DNA of 64,000 nt from Citreicella sp. C3M06 (GTDB lineage Bacteria; Pseudomonadota; Alphaproteobacteria; Rhodobacterales; Rhodobacteraceae): positions 1 through 64,000 of the forward strand of contig NZ_JAHKQA010000005.1 in NCBI RefSeq assembly GCF_018860705.1. The letters run 5' to 3'. The notes under the pieces are model-generated. The model was not told where the DNA came from and searched no databases. It worked only from the letters and a program-made list of their open reading frames with translations. Below are positions 4,141 through 47,543 of the stretch, piece by piece (position 1 is the first letter of the stretch; each line of letters opens with the position of its first letter). A program made the position numbers and the translations under genes.

Positions 4141-4514
4141 CGCTTCGTTCCTCCGGCGCTGAGGCCGCGCATGATCGCGGCATTCACTTCAAGAAGGGGG
4201 GCGAGGCGTGCCTTGCGCGCCAATACCTTTCCGGTGTGAACCTGTGTAAACTCGGCCAGATAGAAAATCTGCGCACGCAATTCCGGGGAGAGCTTGTTCC
4301 CGGGGTCCGCCACATCGATGGCGAGCGCCGTCCAGAGCTTCTGGTTGTCATAAAGGGCTTGCACCAGTCTCGGGTACGCGGCCTTGCCAGCTTCGGCAGC
4401 GGCTTTGATACGGTGCGTCACGCGTGCGAACAGTTCGTATTCGATGGACCGATCGGTGCGTGTGCTTAGGGCATTTTCTGCGTAGGCGCGTTGCGCCATT
4501 GTTTGGGCGTTCAC
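4137..4514 (-). CDS. flaF: Flagellar biosynthesis regulator FlaF
   Basis: A 125-residue, mainly helical protein starting MNAQTMAQRAYAENALSTRT, which matches the FlaF family (typically 110-130 residues). FlaF is needed for flagellin secretion and synthesis and works against FlbT in Caulobacter. It lies 83 bases downstream of the flagellin gene and its stop overlaps the flbT start. A hairpin in the gap at 4563-4587 could let flagellin be expressed more strongly than flaF-flbT. Confidence 0.92.
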   Translation of the reverse strand: MNAQTMAQRAYAENALSTRTDRSIEYELFARVTHRIKAAAEAGKAAYPRLVQALYDNQKLWTALAIDVADPGNKLSPELRAQIFYLAEFTQVHTGKVLARKARLAPLLEVNAAIMRGLSAGGTKR

Positions 4515-4562
4515 GGCAGAACCTTCTGACTCTGTTTCTATGATTTAACGGATCAGGAGTTT

Positions 4563-4587
4563 CGGAGGCCGGACTGGCCAGCCTCCG
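4563..4587 (-). terminator. Hairpin between flagellin and flaF (possible partial terminator)
   Basis: A seven-base stem CGGAGGC/GCCTCCG with a GC-rich interior lies right after the flagellin stop on the transcribed strand. There is no clear T-run after it, so it may stabilise the flagellin mRNA 3' end or give partial termination rather than a full stop. Confidence 0.4.
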
Positions 4588-4597
4588 ACTGTCTGCG

Positions 4598-5932
4598 TTA
4601 GCGGAACAGAGACAGAAGCTGCTGCGGTGCCTGGTTGGCAATCGACAGCGCCTGAATGCCCAGCTGCTGTTGCACTTGGAGCGCCTGAAGGCGCGCGGAG
4701 GCTTCTTCCATGTCAGCATCGACAAGCGTGCCGATACCGGACTTGAGCGAGTCGGTCAGGCTCGAAATGAACGAGCTTTGCGTCTCGATGCGTCCCTGGA
4801 CGGAACCGAAAGAAGACGCCGAGTCGATCGCGGTCTGCAACAGATCCTCGATATCGTTCAGAGCCGAGTCGACGCCCGCCTGAGTCGTTACGTCGATTTC
4901 GCCCAGCTTTTCGAGGCGCCCGCCAATGGTGGTGTCCGCCGTTGCAGCGGTCTGGAACTGTACGCTGATGGCACCTGTACCTTGCGAATCATCCGGGCCG
5001 GTGATGTCGATCTGGTTCAGGTTGGTCGCATTCACCGACGCCGAGATACCCGCTGCGAGTGCGGTATCGTTCTCGCTGATGTAGCTGTTGAAAGCATCAA
5101 CAAGCCCTTGCGCGACGTCCGCTTCGGTATCGCCATCGCGTGCGACGTACACGATTTCCTGATTGCCCGCGGTTGTGGTGGTGTTCATACCGGTGGCGAA
5201 GATGCCGGAACCGGCCGTGATTGTGGCGGTGAAGCCGGTGCCGGCGGCAACCGAATCAGTGCCCGTGCCCGCGGTCTGGCCAACGACGGCAACGGTCGTC
5301 ACGGGAGTTGCGTTGCTGGCCAAGGCAATGGCACCAGTGTTCGCCGCGCCGCTCATAGCGTCGGATCCAGCAGCGGTGTAGCCTGCTGCTGCGACGTTGA
5401 TCGAACTTGCAGAGGTCCCAAGGTCTTGCTTCGCCACACTGATGTCGCTTGCGGCGACCCCGGAGGAGGAGCGGTCAAGGGACGCCAGCACGTTGATGCT
5501 GCCGCTGCCTGCGGTGGTTTCAGTGTTCGAAAGCAGGTTCAGACCGTTGAACTGGGCTGCGCCCACCACCGCACCGATCTGGTCGCGGAGTGCGTCGATG
5601 TCGGTCTGGATCTTGCCGCGGTCGACATTCTCTTCCTGGGCGGCGACGATCTTGCCCTTGATGTCAGTCAGAAGCTCAGTCACCGTTTCGGCGGCGGAGC
5701 GGGCAACTGACACTGTCGATTGGCCAAGTGCAAGGCTGTCGCTGATGCCTGCAAAGCCTTTGACGTCCGCTTCCATCGTCTTGGCGATGGCCCAGACGGC
5801 GGCGTTGTCTTTGGCGCTCGACACGGACTTGCCGGTCGAGATCTCGCCCTGCGTGGTGGCGAGGTCCGAGTTGATGCTTTTGAGGGTCTGCAGCGCCACC
5901 ATGGCGCCATTGTTCGTCAGGATGCTAGACAT
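4598..5932 (-). CDS. fliC: Flagellin
   Basis: A 444-residue flagellin. The conserved D0/D1 helices are at both ends: MSSILTNNGAMVALQTLKS with LATTQGEISTGKSVSSAKDN at the N-terminus, and ASARLQALQVQQQLGIQALS with a final LLSLFR at the C-terminus. The centre (roughly residues 150-340) is rich in Ala, Gly, Thr and Ser, as expected for the exposed variable domain. The ATG at 5932 was chosen because it starts the conserved helix and has AAGGACG upstream; an in-frame extension to 6073 has no family support. It is the only flagellin here and heads the flaF-flbT group. Confidence 0.95.
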   Translation of the reverse strand: MSSILTNNGAMVALQTLKSINSDLATTQGEISTGKSVSSAKDNAAVWAIAKTMEADVKGFAGISDSLALGQSTVSVARSAAETVTELLTDIKGKIVAAQEENVDRGKIQTDIDALRDQIGAVVGAAQFNGLNLLSNTETTAGSGSINVLASLDRSSSGVAASDISVAKQDLGTSASSINVAAAGYTAAGSDAMSGAANTGAIALASNATPVTTVAVVGQTAGTGTDSVAAGTGFTATITAGSGIFATGMNTTTTAGNQEIVYVARDGDTEADVAQGLVDAFNSYISENDTALAAGISASVNATNLNQIDITGPDDSQGTGAISVQFQTAATADTTIGGRLEKLGEIDVTTQAGVDSALNDIEDLLQTAIDSASSFGSVQGRIETQSSFISSLTDSLKSGIGTLVDADMEEASARLQALQVQQQLGIQALSIANQAPQQLLSLFR

Positions 5933-43790: not shown

Positions 43791-43865
43791 GGCCCGTTCG
43801 TCTATCGGTTAGGACGCCAGGTTTTCAACCTGGAAAGAGGGGTTCGATTCCCCTACGGGCTGCCA
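43791..43865 (+). tRNA. tRNA-Glu (anticodon TTC), copy 1
   Basis: A 75-base cloverleaf: acceptor GGCCCGT/ACGGGCT (with a terminal G-U pair), D-arm GTCTATCGGTTAGGAC, anticodon arm CCAGG-TTTTCAA-CCTGG with anticodon TTC, T-arm GGGG-TTCGATT-CCCC and encoded CCA. It is identical to copy 2 downstream. Confidence 0.96.
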
Positions 43866-43901: not shown

Positions 43902-43976
43902 GGCCCGTTCGTCTATCGGTTAGGACGCCAGGTTTTCAACCTGGAAAGAGGGGTTCGATTCCCCTACGGGCTGCCA
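43902..43976 (+). tRNA. tRNA-Glu (anticodon TTC), copy 2
   Basis: Base-for-base the same as the tRNA-Glu at 43791-43865, 36 bases downstream, so the two are probably one transcript. The accessory region with IS remains begins right after its CCA end. Confidence 0.96.
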
Positions 43977-44513
43977 CACGTTTCTCCTTTCTGATCAGAT
44001 GCCATGCGCAGGCTGCGCCGCAGCGTGGACCAGCATGGCCATTTCACCGCATCAGATCCTGTAACCGCGCCTTGTTCGATTCGGGCGAAGCCCCGGTTCT
44101 TGCCGCGCCTCGGCATGAGGGGATGCTCGCGTGTGGGGGTACCCATCGCCGAGCTCAACGCCTTCTGTCGTGCCCGGCTGGGCGTGGGTCTGACCCGGCT
44201 GGCGGGCTGGATCGCCGGTCAGTTTCAGCCGCCCGCCTGCGGTGTGCTTTGCCGCCGGCTAGGGAATCGCCACTGCTTCCGGGAAATCGGCCTCGGCGTC
44301 GGTGATCCGCTCCCGCATCTGCCGTTCTGGCTGGCCGATGCGGACCTCAGGTTCTTCGCCGACGGCCAGCACGTCAAGCGCAAGCATCGGCATGTCGGCT
44401 GGCACGGCGCCCTTGACCCTGACTTTCGGGGTAGAAAAGTCCTGCCACCGCTGCGACTGAGGTGGACCCAATTTCCCAGACAGGTTTGCGGCGCTGCTAA
44501 GCTTGCCTGATGA
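43977..44513. other. Non-coding or decayed region after the tRNA-Glu pair
   Basis: No frame here has a recognisable protein. Several overlapping frames are open simply because of high G+C. A minus-strand frame (about 44259-44471) encodes VKGAVPADMPMLALDVLAVG and similar, which may be a fragment of a transposon passenger or phage gene, but I cannot place it. I regard the stretch as debris next to the IS3 remnant. Confidence 0.4.
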
Positions 44514-45199
44514 TCATGCTGCCGGTTTGAGGCCGGGGCCCTGATGGGCCTCGATCGGTGGTCTGCCTTCAAGTCCGAATGCGGGCGCTCGGTGTTGTAG
44601 AAGACCCTCCCCTTGCCGATGCCTGCCCGGGCCGCAGATCCGGTTTCGAAGGCGTGGAGGTAGAAGCACGCATATTCCAGCGACCGCCATAGCCGTTCGA
44701 TCCTGACGTTGCTCCGCTGCTCGGCAGGGCCTTGCGAAGCAGGGTCCCGAGAGGGGAATGTAGGTGATGTCCGCGCACCGGTTGCCCGGAAGGGCCATGC
44801 GGAGCATAATCCCCAGAGGAGGACCTGGTTAGGGCGCTCGATCACCATATCCCTGATGAGATACGGATACTTGCGGTACTCCGGGTGGGGCGCGGTCGTG
44901 CGCGGCCGCTGGTGGACAGCGCGCAGGCCCATCCTCGCCATCAGCCGCCGGATGCGCTTGCGCCAGACGCAGTAGCCTTGGTTGCGCAGGTGCTTCGCCA
45001 TTTGACGGCTACCGTAGAGCGGGATCTCCGTGAACGGCGCATCGATCAGCTTCATCAGCGCCAGGTTCAGCGGGCTCTTGGACTTGCCCGGGCCGCACCA
45101 TGCCAACAGGCTGACCCCGACCTGCACGCATTGCCGGGTGATCGACAGCACCGGGTGTCTGGGCTCGATCATCTCTCGCCTCCGGGACGGGCTCACCAT
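44514..45199 (-). pseudogene. IS3-family transposase OrfB, degenerate
   Basis: The minus strand starts MVSPSRRREMIEPRHPVLSI and continues as a normal OrfB (EIPLYGSRQMAKHLRNQGYC then RIRRLMARMGLRAVHQRPRT). At about 44800 the frame shifts: CADITYIPLS, carrying the first catalytic Asp, is only readable in another frame. Most of the DDE core is then deleted, and the tail NVRIERLWRSLEYACFYLHA with YNTERPHSDL resumes. It cannot encode an active enzyme. Confidence 0.85.
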
Positions 45200-45402
45200 C
45201 CGGAGGCTTTGACTAAAATATCCCGCTCCAACACCAGTTGGCCGATCTTGGCGGGCAGCTTTTCGATTTCGCCTTCCCTTTCGGCTGCCTTCGCCTCGGC
45301 CTTGCCGGAGAAGTGTCCAGACATGCCCTCGAGCGCCGCCTTCGCCTTGAACTCGGCGCCCTAATTCTTTCGTGTACCAGTCACGCCGTTCTTCCTCGTC
45401 AT
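45193..45402 (-). pseudogene. IS3-family OrfA, inactivated (stop codon and internal deletion)
   Basis: From ATG at 45402 the frame reads MTRKNGVTGTRKN, then a TAG at 45361-45363 where family members have Tyr, then GAEFKAKAALE. It jumps directly to GMSGHFSGKAEA and ends IEKLPAKIGQLVLERDILVK. Relative to the family about 27 residues holding the helix-turn-helix are missing. The stop overlaps the OrfB start (ATGGTGA), the normal arrangement. This is a doubly disabled copy. Confidence 0.8.
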
Positions 45403-45728
45403 TCTTGGTGGCAAGCTTCGCAGGAGGGTCGGTTTTCTGGGAAATCCTCAGCGGCGGTTCGGCCCGTTCTTCGGGCGCACCTGGGTTGCGGGGGCCTGTG
45501 GGCGTTCGGTGCTTCTCGGGGCAGTCGGGTGGCAGGATGAGGACAGATCCTTGCGCCGGTTGAGATGGCGTTTGCCGGACAAGGGAGCAAGCAGGGGCAG
45601 GAATTGTGCGTGAACTGCCTTATGCATGTGCTATGTGATGAAACTATAGGCGACATGCGGTGATCACAGGTCGGCTTTGCGCCACTATGTGTTGCTCCGG
45701 CCGAAAAGCCTGTCTAAATGGTTTTAAC
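45403..45728. other. Intergenic region upstream of hairpin RNA 1, no gene
   Basis: No convincing coding frame. The first part may be the outer end of the wrecked IS3 element. The region approaches the hairpin array; a short hairpin GACGCG/CGCGTC lies just after it at 45729-45745. A promoter for the hairpin RNA is expected here but no clear boxes were found. Confidence 0.4.
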
Positions 45729-45754
45729 GACGCGGACATCGCGTCAGACAGTTT

Positions 45755-45829
45755 CCTGGGGTTCTCTCCTCCTCCCTGAACCCCGGAAATCAGCGGCGAC
45801 CCTCTCTCCTCCTCCCTGAGGGTCGCCGC
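45755..45829 (+). ncRNA. Cuckoo/CcsR-type small RNA candidate 1 (anti-Shine-Dalgarno loops)
   Basis: Two strong hairpins in tandem with the same 13-base loop, TCTCCTCCTCCCT. The first has stem GGGGTTC/GAACCCC (45758-45764 with 45778-45784). The second has the 12-base perfect stem GCGGCGACCCTC/GAGGGTCGCCGC (45793-45804 with 45818-45829). Loop-exposed CCTCCTCCC, repeated in two hairpins, is the defining feature of the alphaproteobacterial cuckoo RNA family, which includes the stress-induced CcsR RNAs of Rhodobacter sphaeroides. A further CTTCCTCC follows at about 45834. Transcription ends are not defined, so the coordinates cover the structured core only. No DUF1127 (CcaF) gene is next to it. 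Confidence 0.68.
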
Positions 45830-46020
45830 GACCCTTCCTCCTATTTGGATGAATGCCCGCCGGGTCTGATGTTCGTCAGAGTTTTGACATAGGCAAATCT
45901 GGCTGTCCGCCAGCCTGTCTGAAAGACATGGCCCGCGCCGGGCAGCCGATCTGTCGAATGGCTGGGTGAGCGATTTCAGGTTATTGCGGAAATGGACAAC
46001 TGCCAGCATCACAAGCGATG

Positions 46021-46092
46021 CCCCGGTCGCCTCGCCTCCTCAAACGAGGCGACCGGATCGCGACAGAATGACCTCCTCCCCAGGTGTCATCC
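46021..46092 (+). ncRNA. Cuckoo/CcsR-type small RNA candidate 2
   Basis: About 190 bases after candidate 1, the same plan recurs with different stems. Hairpin A has a perfect 12-base stem CCGGTCGCCTCG/CGAGGCGACCGG (46023-46034 with 46045-46056) and loop CCTCCTCAAA. Hairpin B has stem ATGAC/GTCAT (46068-46072 with 46086-46090) and loop CTCCTCCCCAGGT. Both loops expose CCTCC. A possible end structure GGGTA/TACCC lies at about 46113-46129. Tandem copies are typical for CcsR loci. Hairpin B is weaker, so the call is less sure than candidate 1. Confidence 0.58.
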
Positions 46093-46223
46093 GTCTCAGG
46101 TCGACGCGTTGCGGGTAGCTATCGTACCCCGTGTGGCGGACCATTCGTGATCTTGTAAGCCAGAGATCACACCGGCTGCGTCAAAATGTCCAGAACATTT
46201 TTCGCTGCACTGCGGCGTTGATG

Positions 46224-47543
46224 TCACAGGTCAAGCAGGCTGGCTGCCAGATACGCTGGCATCAACAGGCTTCGACGGTATTTCCCAAGCGGAAACTTTC
46301 CGGGAATCAATGACATGGCAGACGGAAGCCGCGCCCGTGGGCGATGGCCCAGCACCATGTCGGCCAGCAAGAGCCCGGTATGGCTGCCCATCGCGACCCC
46401 GTTCCCGTGAAAGCCAATCCCGGCATACAGGCCGGGATGATCGGGAATCTCTCCGACAAAAGGGGTGAGATTCGCCATCAGGCAGACCAGCCCCGACCAT
46501 TCATGGCTGATCGCGACATCGCGCCATTGCGGGAACATCGCGGCGAAATCGCTTCGGATACGTTGAGATATGCGCCCGGATGCGCGCGGCGTTGCGGTCA
46601 GCCCGCCCCGCATGCCGAACAGGAATCGCCCATCCGGCATCAGACGGAAGTAATGCAGCAACACACGGCTGTCATAGGCCATTTGCGCCGAGGTCCAGCC
46701 CTGCGCCGCTTGCAGCCTGTCGGAAATCGGTTCGGTGACGATGACGCTAGATTGCACCGGAAGGTAGCGGGCGCGCAGCCAGTCCGGCAGATCTTCGGAA
46801 GAATAGCCGTTGGTAGCAAGAATCACCCGGTCGGCGGTTAGCGTGCCCTGCGGTGTGGTCAGCTGCCATTTGCCGTTTCGGCGCAGCGCCGTAACCGGGC
46901 TATGCCCATGCAACGTCGCGCCGGCGGCCTGCGCGGCGCGGGCCAGCCCGGCGTGATATTTGCGCGGGTTCAGCGCAAAGCCCAGCGGCGTGTGCAGGGC
47001 ACCAAAGAACGGCCCGCCCATGCCTTCGGCGGCCATGTCCTCCATCTCGATCAGGCGGGGGCGCACGCCGTAATCCTGCTCGATCTGGGGAGCTTCGGCG
47101 CGCAGCTTGGCAAAGGCGCGCGGGCTATGGGCGATCAGGGTTTCGCCTTGGGAATGGCGGTCTACGTCGATGTGGTTTTCCGCAATGAGCCGGGCGGCGG
47201 TGTCGATGGCGGCCTTTTCCGTGTGGCGCCAGTCGCGCAGCCCTTCGGCCCCGACCTGCCCGCGCAACTGCCGCGCCGACGCCTTGGCGCCGCCGAGGCA
47301 GCAAAAGCCGCCGTTGCGCCCCGACGCGCCATAGCCGGGGTGCTCGGCCTCGAGCAGGGTGACCTCCGCGCCGTCCTGCGCAAGGTGCAGCGCCGCCGAC
47401 AGCCCGGTAAAGCCGCCGCCGATGATGGCGATGCCGGTCGTGGCGTCGCCTTGCAGCGCAGACCAGTCCATCGGCGGTACGGTGTCGGCCCACCAGCACG
47501 CGCCTTGCGGCCCATAGGCGGGGGCCTCGTAGATGCGTTTCAT
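46224..47543 (-). CDS. FAD-dependent amine oxidase, gamma-glutamylputrescine oxidase-like
   Basis: A 439-residue DAO-superfamily flavoenzyme. The FAD motif GIAIIGGGFTGLSAALHLAQ is near residue 38, followed by HPGYGASGRNGGFCCLGGAK, a typical PuuB/OrdL segment. GIGFHGNGVAMGSHTGLLLA at the C-terminus completes FAD binding. The last gene of the polyamine transport operon (ATG overlaps the permease stop), so it probably oxidises imported putrescine or its glutamyl derivative. A matching glutamyl-putrescine synthetase is not in the window. Confidence 0.85.
   Translation of the reverse strand: MKRIYEAPAYGPQGACWWADTVPPMDWSALQGDATTGIAIIGGGFTGLSAALHLAQDGAEVTLLEAEHPGYGASGRNGGFCCLGGAKASARQLRGQVGAEGLRDWRHTEKAAIDTAARLIAENHIDVDRHSQGETLIAHSPRAFAKLRAEAPQIEQDYGVRPRLIEMEDMAAEGMGGPFFGALHTPLGFALNPRKYHAGLARAAQAAGATLHGHSPVTALRRNGKWQLTTPQGTLTADRVILATNGYSSEDLPDWLRARYLPVQSSVIVTEPISDRLQAAQGWTSAQMAYDSRVLLHYFRLMPDGRFLFGMRGGLTATPRASGRISQRIRSDFAAMFPQWRDVAISHEWSGLVCLMANLTPFVGEIPDHPGLYAGIGFHGNGVAMGSHTGLLLADMVLGHRPRARLPSAMSLIPGKFPLGKYRRSLLMPAYLAASLLDL

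Follow-up and report, generated by a model that had tools for sequence, protein, structure and literature searches.

A putative stand-alone cuckoo-type small RNA of Citreicella sp. C3M06 and its relatives in the genus

Two neighbouring hairpins with unlike stems and an identical 13-nt loop, TCTCCTCCTCCCT, stand between a transposase remnant and an oxidoreductase gene in Citreicella sp. C3M06 (45752–45829, + strand). Are they a small RNA, of which family, and is this copy a working gene or a stranded one? These questions were addressed with the window (the whole stretch of 64,000 nucleotides that was analysed), the remainder of its genome, and genomes of the genus and beyond.

The hairpins and their copies in the genus

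The two loops are the same in every position and sit on different stems, as a sequence-only reading of this DNA had claimed (Table 1). Hairpin 1 is formed by the arms TTTCC(T)GGGGTTC and GAACCCCGGAAA, with 12 pairs and one bulged T; the computed fold extends it by a basal G-U pair. In hairpin 2, described in the same reading as a stem of 12 perfect pairs, the arms GCGGCGACCCTC and GAGGGTCGCCGC do pair in 12 of 12 positions. The start that it gave, 45755, is too late: hairpin 1 begins at 45752, and three of its pairs would be lost. The fold of 45740–45860 has an energy of −51.6 kcal/mol (z −5.66), and none of 200 shuffles was equally stable. Allowing up to one mismatch, the 12-mer CTCCTCCTCCCT has two sites in the 64 kb window, both of them these loops, for an expected 0.12.

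Table 1. Features around the two hairpins; positions are those of the window.
Feature	Position	Strand	Sequence or detail	Basis
Promoter-like region	45692–45719	+	TTGCTC (45692–45697), 16 nt, CTAAAT (45714–45719)	By eye, alignment with orphan loci of relatives
5' hairpin, without anti-Shine-Dalgarno motif	45729–45745	+	GACGCG-GACAT-CGCGTC	Covariation, 55 orphan loci
Cuckoo hairpin 1	45752–45789	+	Loop TCTCCTCCTCCCT at 45765–45777	Fold, covariation
Cuckoo hairpin 2	45793–45829	+	Loop TCTCCTCCTCCCT at 45805–45817	Fold, covariation
Pyrimidine-rich tail	45830–45846	+	GACCCTTCCTCCTATTT	Sequence
Second conserved element	46023–46140		Three hairpins	Covariance model, relatives
Stem of second element	46023–46056		CCGGTCGCCTCG/CGAGGCGACCGG	
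Stem of second element	46066–46092		GAATGAC/GTCATCC around CTCCTCCCC, then a weak third hairpin	
Conserved block beside second element	46183–46217		AAAATGTCCAGAACATTTTTCGCTGCACTGCGGCG	Alignments, by eye

Strong, GC-rich, intergenic hairpins could also be a pair of terminators serving a neighbouring gene. I consider this highly improbable, as the neighbouring FAD oxidoreductase gene (46224–47543, − strand) is convergent and about 400 bp away, and I rejected it on the identical pyrimidine loops and the lack of any T run immediately 3' of hairpin 2 in the window sequence. Two terminator-like sites were found in 801 bp, against 0.8 in shuffles; the site at 45818–45836 (+) would be a fold competing with hairpin 2, whose 3' arm it uses. 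At the position of the tail, many orphan copies of relatives (defined below) carry CCTCCC or CTCCC, as judged by eye.

The double motif CCTCCTCCC-N24-44-CCTCCTCCC gave 155 matches (table sum) in 20 of 20 genomes of the genus, and the backward pattern gave two. A match judged by inspection to stand outside any array is called an orphan; among the matches listed there are at least 58 orphan loci (57 and the window copy), from 18 of the 20 genomes, with none among these from G003 and G004. Array stretches were also sampled, 21 from the 20 genomes. With tblastn, a DUF1127 gene was found in 20 of the 21 array stretches, the exception (L163) ending at a contig end, and in 0 of the 58 stretches around orphans, which were mostly 8 kb long and in some cases less, where a contig ended. 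This shows that the cuckoo copies of the genus form two classes, a DUF1127-led array and scattered stand-alone genes that have a 5' hairpin and an upstream block of their own. The genome of the window has both: it holds 8 CcsR1 matches and 14 ar14 matches at E ≤1, eight of the latter with E <0.001. Six of these eight belong to an array that follows a DUF1127 gene on contig 51; a run of N makes the copy number of this array uncertain. The remaining two are the window copy and another orphan on contig 90.

For covariation, 55 of the 58 orphans were aligned to the structure taken from the window copy, leaving out the divergent loci L118, L137 and L158. (In L118 and L137, unlike in the window copy, hairpin 2 is immediately followed by a T run.) Across the 55 loci, 95.1% of 1563 cells are paired. 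Two-sided changes were seen in 20 of 30 pairs (shuffles: 10.8) and in 138 cells (shuffles: 39.3). With the 3' partner slid they were confined to 2–8 pairs, a comparison in which a structure derived from one alignment row is favoured, chiefly on cells paired, and in which the loci are related. Of the five measures of covariation, one fails to exceed shuffles, namely the count of further pair types (37 vs 35.9, with 168 of 500 shuffles as high). By helix, two-sided changes affect 5 of 6 pairs in the 5' hairpin, 9 of 12 in hairpin 1 and 6 of 12 in hairpin 2. The 5' hairpin, with 96.1% of its cells paired, keeps its pairing through changes on both sides (GACGCG/CGCGTC vs GATGC/GCATC). A conserved loop with compensatory changes in the stems, the pattern by which the sequence-only reading proposed that relatives be judged, is thus present in these loci. 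Its statement that the loop and not the stem is under selection goes too far, as two-sided changes maintain the stem pairing and, in hairpin 2, four pairs rarely or never vary.

The strand was assessed from counts of G-T against A-C. Over the 58 loci hairpin 2 gives 29 to 1, which supports the + strand, and the same count gives 49 to 32 in hairpin 1 and 17 to 19 in the 5' hairpin; since the controls gave figures as far apart as these, the test is a weak one.

Family assignment

At the Rfam gathering threshold the window yields two tRNAs, and nothing at the cuckoo hairpins. (Two tandem tRNA-Glu (TTC) genes with equal scores, 43791–43862 and 43902–43973, follow recJ.) Below the threshold, on the correct strand, the hairpins match the covariance models of ar14 (RF02344; 55.1 bits, E 2.5e-9, gathering score 58.8) and of CcsR1 (RF02791; 49.0 bits, E 5e-11, gathering score 65.3). 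The covariance-model search that the sequence-only reading had suggested thus gave matches on the right strand, and both gathering scores were missed; the window RNA is not assigned to either Rfam family because it is below both thresholds. Both matches run from end to end of the model (the third hairpin of ar14 being deleted), and they begin at 45748 (ar14) and 45751 (CcsR1), with the 5' hairpin outside both. Weak matches to ar7 (21.1 bits) and 6C (25.3 bits) were also seen at the hairpins. Among the 41 genomes searched, none has a CcsR1 match above the cut-off, and 25, from 6 of 22 genera, have one below it, although such weak scores are unspecific: CcsR1 also matches below the cut-off in Thermus composti, and ar14 at E ≤1 in Thermus composti, Deinobacterium chartae and Thermotoga maritima.

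Cuckoo RNAs are present in many copies per genome, and Reinkensmeier and Giegerich are said to have defined the family in 2015 by two to four hairpins. The window RNA has two adjacent ones. It resembles the family in its neighbouring hairpins, the same CCUCCUCCC loop and the variable stems, the 55 loci having been chosen by the motif, so that its constancy among them is built in. I found no defining difference, the 5' hairpin being an addition. Members with three and four hairpins and the two-hairpin RS0680a have been described, and a covariance model was judged inadequate for such a family (PMC3927594, in excerpt).

Two known groups are the nearest relatives. CcsR1-4 of Rhodobacter sphaeroides (RF02791) likewise have two adjoining hairpins with CCUCCUCCC in both loops (RS0680a; PMC3927594, in excerpt); they share a transcript with the DUF1127 gene ccaF1, made from an RpoHI/RpoHII promoter, and RNase E processes them (PMC10253847, in excerpt). 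The position downstream of a DUF1127 gene holds for the contig 51 array and not for the window copy, which has in addition a 5' hairpin and its own upstream block. That no DUF1127 gene accompanies the RNA had been observed in the sequence-only reading, and the four DUF1127 matches of the genome are indeed all on other contigs. The rhizobial ar14/NfeR1 RNAs (RF02344) are, in the excerpts of two reports, stand-alone genes with CCUCCUCCC loops and several copies per genome (PMC10746234; PMC7143759). They have three hairpins each with the motif, whereas the window RNA has two and a 5' hairpin without it. They also have their own promoter and a conserved upstream stretch; an upstream block is kept in the orphans described here, and a sigma-70 promoter scan of 45400–46200 of the window found no site.

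The proposal of a cuckoo-type RNA is accordingly backed by the E-values for ar14 and CcsR1, by the behaviour of loop and stems in relatives, and by the DUF1127-headed array in the same genome. The evidence supports an orphan cuckoo-type sRNA in a Salipiger-like genome: a known kind of RNA, here standing alone and equipped with a covarying 5' hairpin. By analogy, it should work like the CcsR and NfeR1 RNAs.

Upstream region, neighbourhood and predicted targets

Alignments, judged by eye, show a conserved block upstream of the orphans. In the 58 orphans, the region from −130 to −40 relative to the first motif adds up to 5,220 bp and contains the palindrome CTGCN3GCAG 30 times; 447,382 bp of sequence from these loci contain it 21 times. 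At its proximal place, 69–79 nt before the motif, all 8 letters are present in 26 of 58 orphans (including the divergent L118, L137 and L158), 7 letters in 9 and at most 6 in 23, compared to 0.06% (8 letters) and 1.7% (7 letters) of random windows; because the loci are related, these occurrences are not independent events. PhaR of R. sphaeroides reportedly binds 5'-CTGCNNNGCAG-3' (PMC12542648, in excerpt). As far as its letters go, the palindrome upstream of many orphans is this published PhaR operator, set between −35- and −10-like elements. The array promoters have a related TTGTGCA-NN-YGCAGCA, identified by eye.

The genome of the window has one PhaR-type gene (PF07879), with no CTGCN3GC[AG]G in the 6 kb stretch around it. 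Its PhaC-like/phasin locus has three palindromes: a pair ahead of the first phasin-like gene, which was identified by Pfam, and a single one ahead of the second, which, like PhaC, was named from its sequence. A PhaR-type site in a similar place has been reported for another alphaproteobacterial sRNA, MmgR (alpha-r8), which is regulated by AniA (PhaR) and NtrC and has a dyad between −35 and −10 (PMC8401924, in excerpt) and a putative PhaR site (PMC12542648, in excerpt). MmgR belongs to a different RNA family, and the window copy lacks the palindrome that many orphan promoters have there. Among the matches listed in the PMC open literature, I found no report that links PhaR to cuckoo or CcsR RNAs. 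For the window copy itself, PhaR control is unsupported, as its best proximal and distal places reach 5 of 8 letters, a value attained by 58% of random windows of equal size. The Salipiger aestuarii copy is likewise without the palindrome (4 letters proximal, 6 distal).

This bears on whether the window copy is still a gene. Upstream of it, the ORF 44225–45199 (−) matches HTH_21 and rve_3, which bears out the transposon debris noted in the sequence-only reading; I take this transposase remnant to be IS3-type. It is conceivable that the RNA is a decayed cuckoo copy, stranded by this debris and no longer expressed, all the more so as it has no PhaR-type palindrome, no sigma-70 site and no T run. 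Its position is also shared by few relatives. Among 71 loci with relatives of the FAD oxidoreductase gene, the closest is that of S. aestuarii (81%), with other Salipiger and Alloyangia species at 70–73%, and a close pair of exact motifs is present only in the S. aestuarii locus (L034). Synteny of the window copy is found in S. aestuarii only, 1 of the 57 other orphan loci, with the FAD gene at 81% and two transporter genes at about 91%. Against decay, both loops are intact and all stems pair, and the 5' hairpin is maintained by the both-sided changes described above. The S. aestuarii copy, adjoining the same FAD gene, is 89.7% identical over 107 bp (45726–45832), while BLAST leaves the sequence upstream of it and the 190 bp up to the second element unmatched. 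I therefore regard decay as unlikely.

The reading that I consider probable is that of an orphan trans-acting cuckoo-type sRNA on the + strand, whose loops block GGGAGGAG-type ribosome-binding sites, mainly of solute-uptake genes. It builds on the observed structure with its conservation and covariation, the orphan context, the strand signal of hairpin 2, and the enrichment among predicted targets given below. From these I infer transcription of the window RNA, its promoter class, 3' end and length, Hfq binding and repression. Transcription on the + strand would begin just upstream of 45729 and give an sRNA of about 100–120 nt, consisting of the 5' hairpin, the two hairpins exposing CCUCCUCCC in their loops, and the pyrimidine-rich tail. 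The loops would then pair with GGGAGGAG-type ribosome-binding sites and block translation, with solute-uptake genes, such as those for TRAP transporter binding proteins, as the main targets.

The cuckoo loop is complementary to GGGAGGAG, and GGGAGGAG-N3-9-ATG has 38 exact sites in the genome, against 3 for the backward pattern. The Pfam scan covered 36 of these 38 frames, leaving out L243 (contig end, 5 residues) and L240 (26 residues), and the enrichment set consists of the 34 frames of at least 68 aa, excluding the short L230 and L234 (45 and 66 aa, no match). Seven of the 34 are DctP proteins of TRAP transporters (L224, L237, L239, L244, L246, L248 and L250), in a genome with 30 DctP matches in total, two of them neighbouring fragments, perhaps of a single gene. 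The hypergeometric P for DctP is 5e-10 to 3e-9, for an assumed gene number of 4,500–5,200 and with Shine-Dalgarno strength uncontrolled; the enrichment may instead reflect a strong Shine-Dalgarno sequence common to highly expressed periplasmic proteins. Transport families account for 16 of the 34 frames, the others being two TctC, two other periplasmic binding proteins, three ABC ATPases, one short-chain fatty acid transporter and one FadL-like outer membrane protein. Outside transport, the predicted targets include ScfR (a fatty acyl-CoA regulator), an acyl-CoA dehydrogenase, a Glu/Leu/Phe/Val dehydrogenase and a homogentisate dioxygenase. The predicted targets of NfeR1 are also mostly transporters (PMC10746234; PMC7143759, both in excerpt).

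A second conserved element

A further conserved element lies between the cuckoo hairpins and the FAD oxidoreductase gene (Table 1). BLAST of 46011–46100 against the collected loci found relatives solely in loci that also hold an orphan cuckoo gene. A covariance model, R1 (77 positions, 46023–46098 in the window, with only 9 base pairs), was trained on nine sequences including the window, and gave 27 matches at E ≤0.1 in the 20 genomes of the genus, namely 19 with E <1e-8 in 16 genomes and the remaining 8 at E 0.008 to 0.09. Of the 19 strong matches, 17 are within 0.8 kb of an orphan cuckoo locus, although nine of the 17 are the training sequences, themselves found near orphans. Outside the training set, 8 of 10 are linked to an orphan locus, and the two unlinked ones are on contig 3 of G014 (7 kb away) and on contig 2 of G008 (57 kb).

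The element has a purine and a pyrimidine strand. On the purine strand, GGGAGG is found in the hairpin region of 17 of 18 sequences (L211 was left out of this set, its stem anchor not being found), for a background of 0.08 per 155 nt; equivalently, CCTCCC is found on the other strand. These GGGAGG loops are complementary to the cuckoo loop. The strand evidence conflicts. In 9 of 9 cases the purine-loop strand has the lower fold energy, and the alignment of 18 sequences gives G-T 22 and A-C 5 for the purine-strand structure, vs 12 and 9 for that of the other strand. Taken per stem, the same 18 sequences favour the purine strand in stem c (19 to 1) and stem b (8 to 5), and the pyrimidine strand in stem a (6 to 21), in counts where some automatic stem picks are plainly wrong (L199, L210) and where sites are shared by descent. 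Inspection by eye identified blocks upstream of the hairpins on both strands, CTGGAC-N15-ATGTGT-like in most copies on the purine strand and GTAAGnAAAG-like on the pyrimidine strand. The block at 46183–46217 would be on the promoter side of the element if the − strand is read.

If the pyrimidine strand is the transcribed one, the cuckoo hairpins and this element could be parts of a single + strand RNA of greater length, in which as many as five hairpins would have pyrimidine loops, similar to the members with three and four hairpins. In 8 of the 17 linked cases the element is indeed downstream with its pyrimidine strand on that of the cuckoo gene, and in three of five loci submitted to Rfam (L191, L192 and L201) the pyrimidine strand matches ar14 at 34–40 bits, with weaker matches to CcsR1 (21.0 bits, L192) and sX13 (23.4 bits, L191). 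However, the strand opposite a cuckoo sponge would give an equal ar14 score, and the element of the window scores ar14 at just 19.9 bits (E 0.15). Its distance from the cuckoo gene is 0.16–0.7 kb, and because the orientation is opposite in the other 9 of the 17, co-transcription is not the rule. A single longer RNA thus seems very unlikely.

The second element may be a sponge or a further cuckoo-type RNA. In computed duplexes, one loop (L191 c) pairs better with a 16S 3' end (−14.1) than with the cuckoo loop (−12.6), and the other four loops pair better with the cuckoo loop. A reading of the GGA loops as those of a CsrB/RsmZ-type RNA was rejected, as the genome has no CsrA (PF02599) match. Among the matches listed in the PMC open literature, I found no report of a sponge of CcsR. 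The closest published parallel found to a cuckoo RNA and its sponge is in Caulobacter, where four sibling sRNAs, SisA-D, carry an anti-Shine-Dalgarno 10-mer and are antagonised by the sponge RNA CrfA in carbon starvation (PMC12559287, in excerpt). SisA-D belong to the alpha-r8 family.

These observations can be joined in a wider proposal for Salipiger, which I consider doubtful as a whole. The orphan cuckoo RNA would form a two-RNA module with an opposite-strand, three-hairpin RNA 0.2 kb away, the loops of which (GGGAGG, GGGAGGAG) would act as a decoy ribosome-binding site that titrates the cuckoo loops; many orphans would be tied to PhaR, linking PHB reserves to TRAP uptake, and the window copy would have escaped PhaR. 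Were the module real, PHB reserves would be coupled to the uptake of organic acids by TRAP transporters, and a sponge role of the second element, if true, would provide a counterpart, from a different RNA family, to CrfA and SisA-D of Caulobacter. The putative PhaR operator at many orphans would make the carbon-storage state directly testable, as one cause for cuckoo copies.
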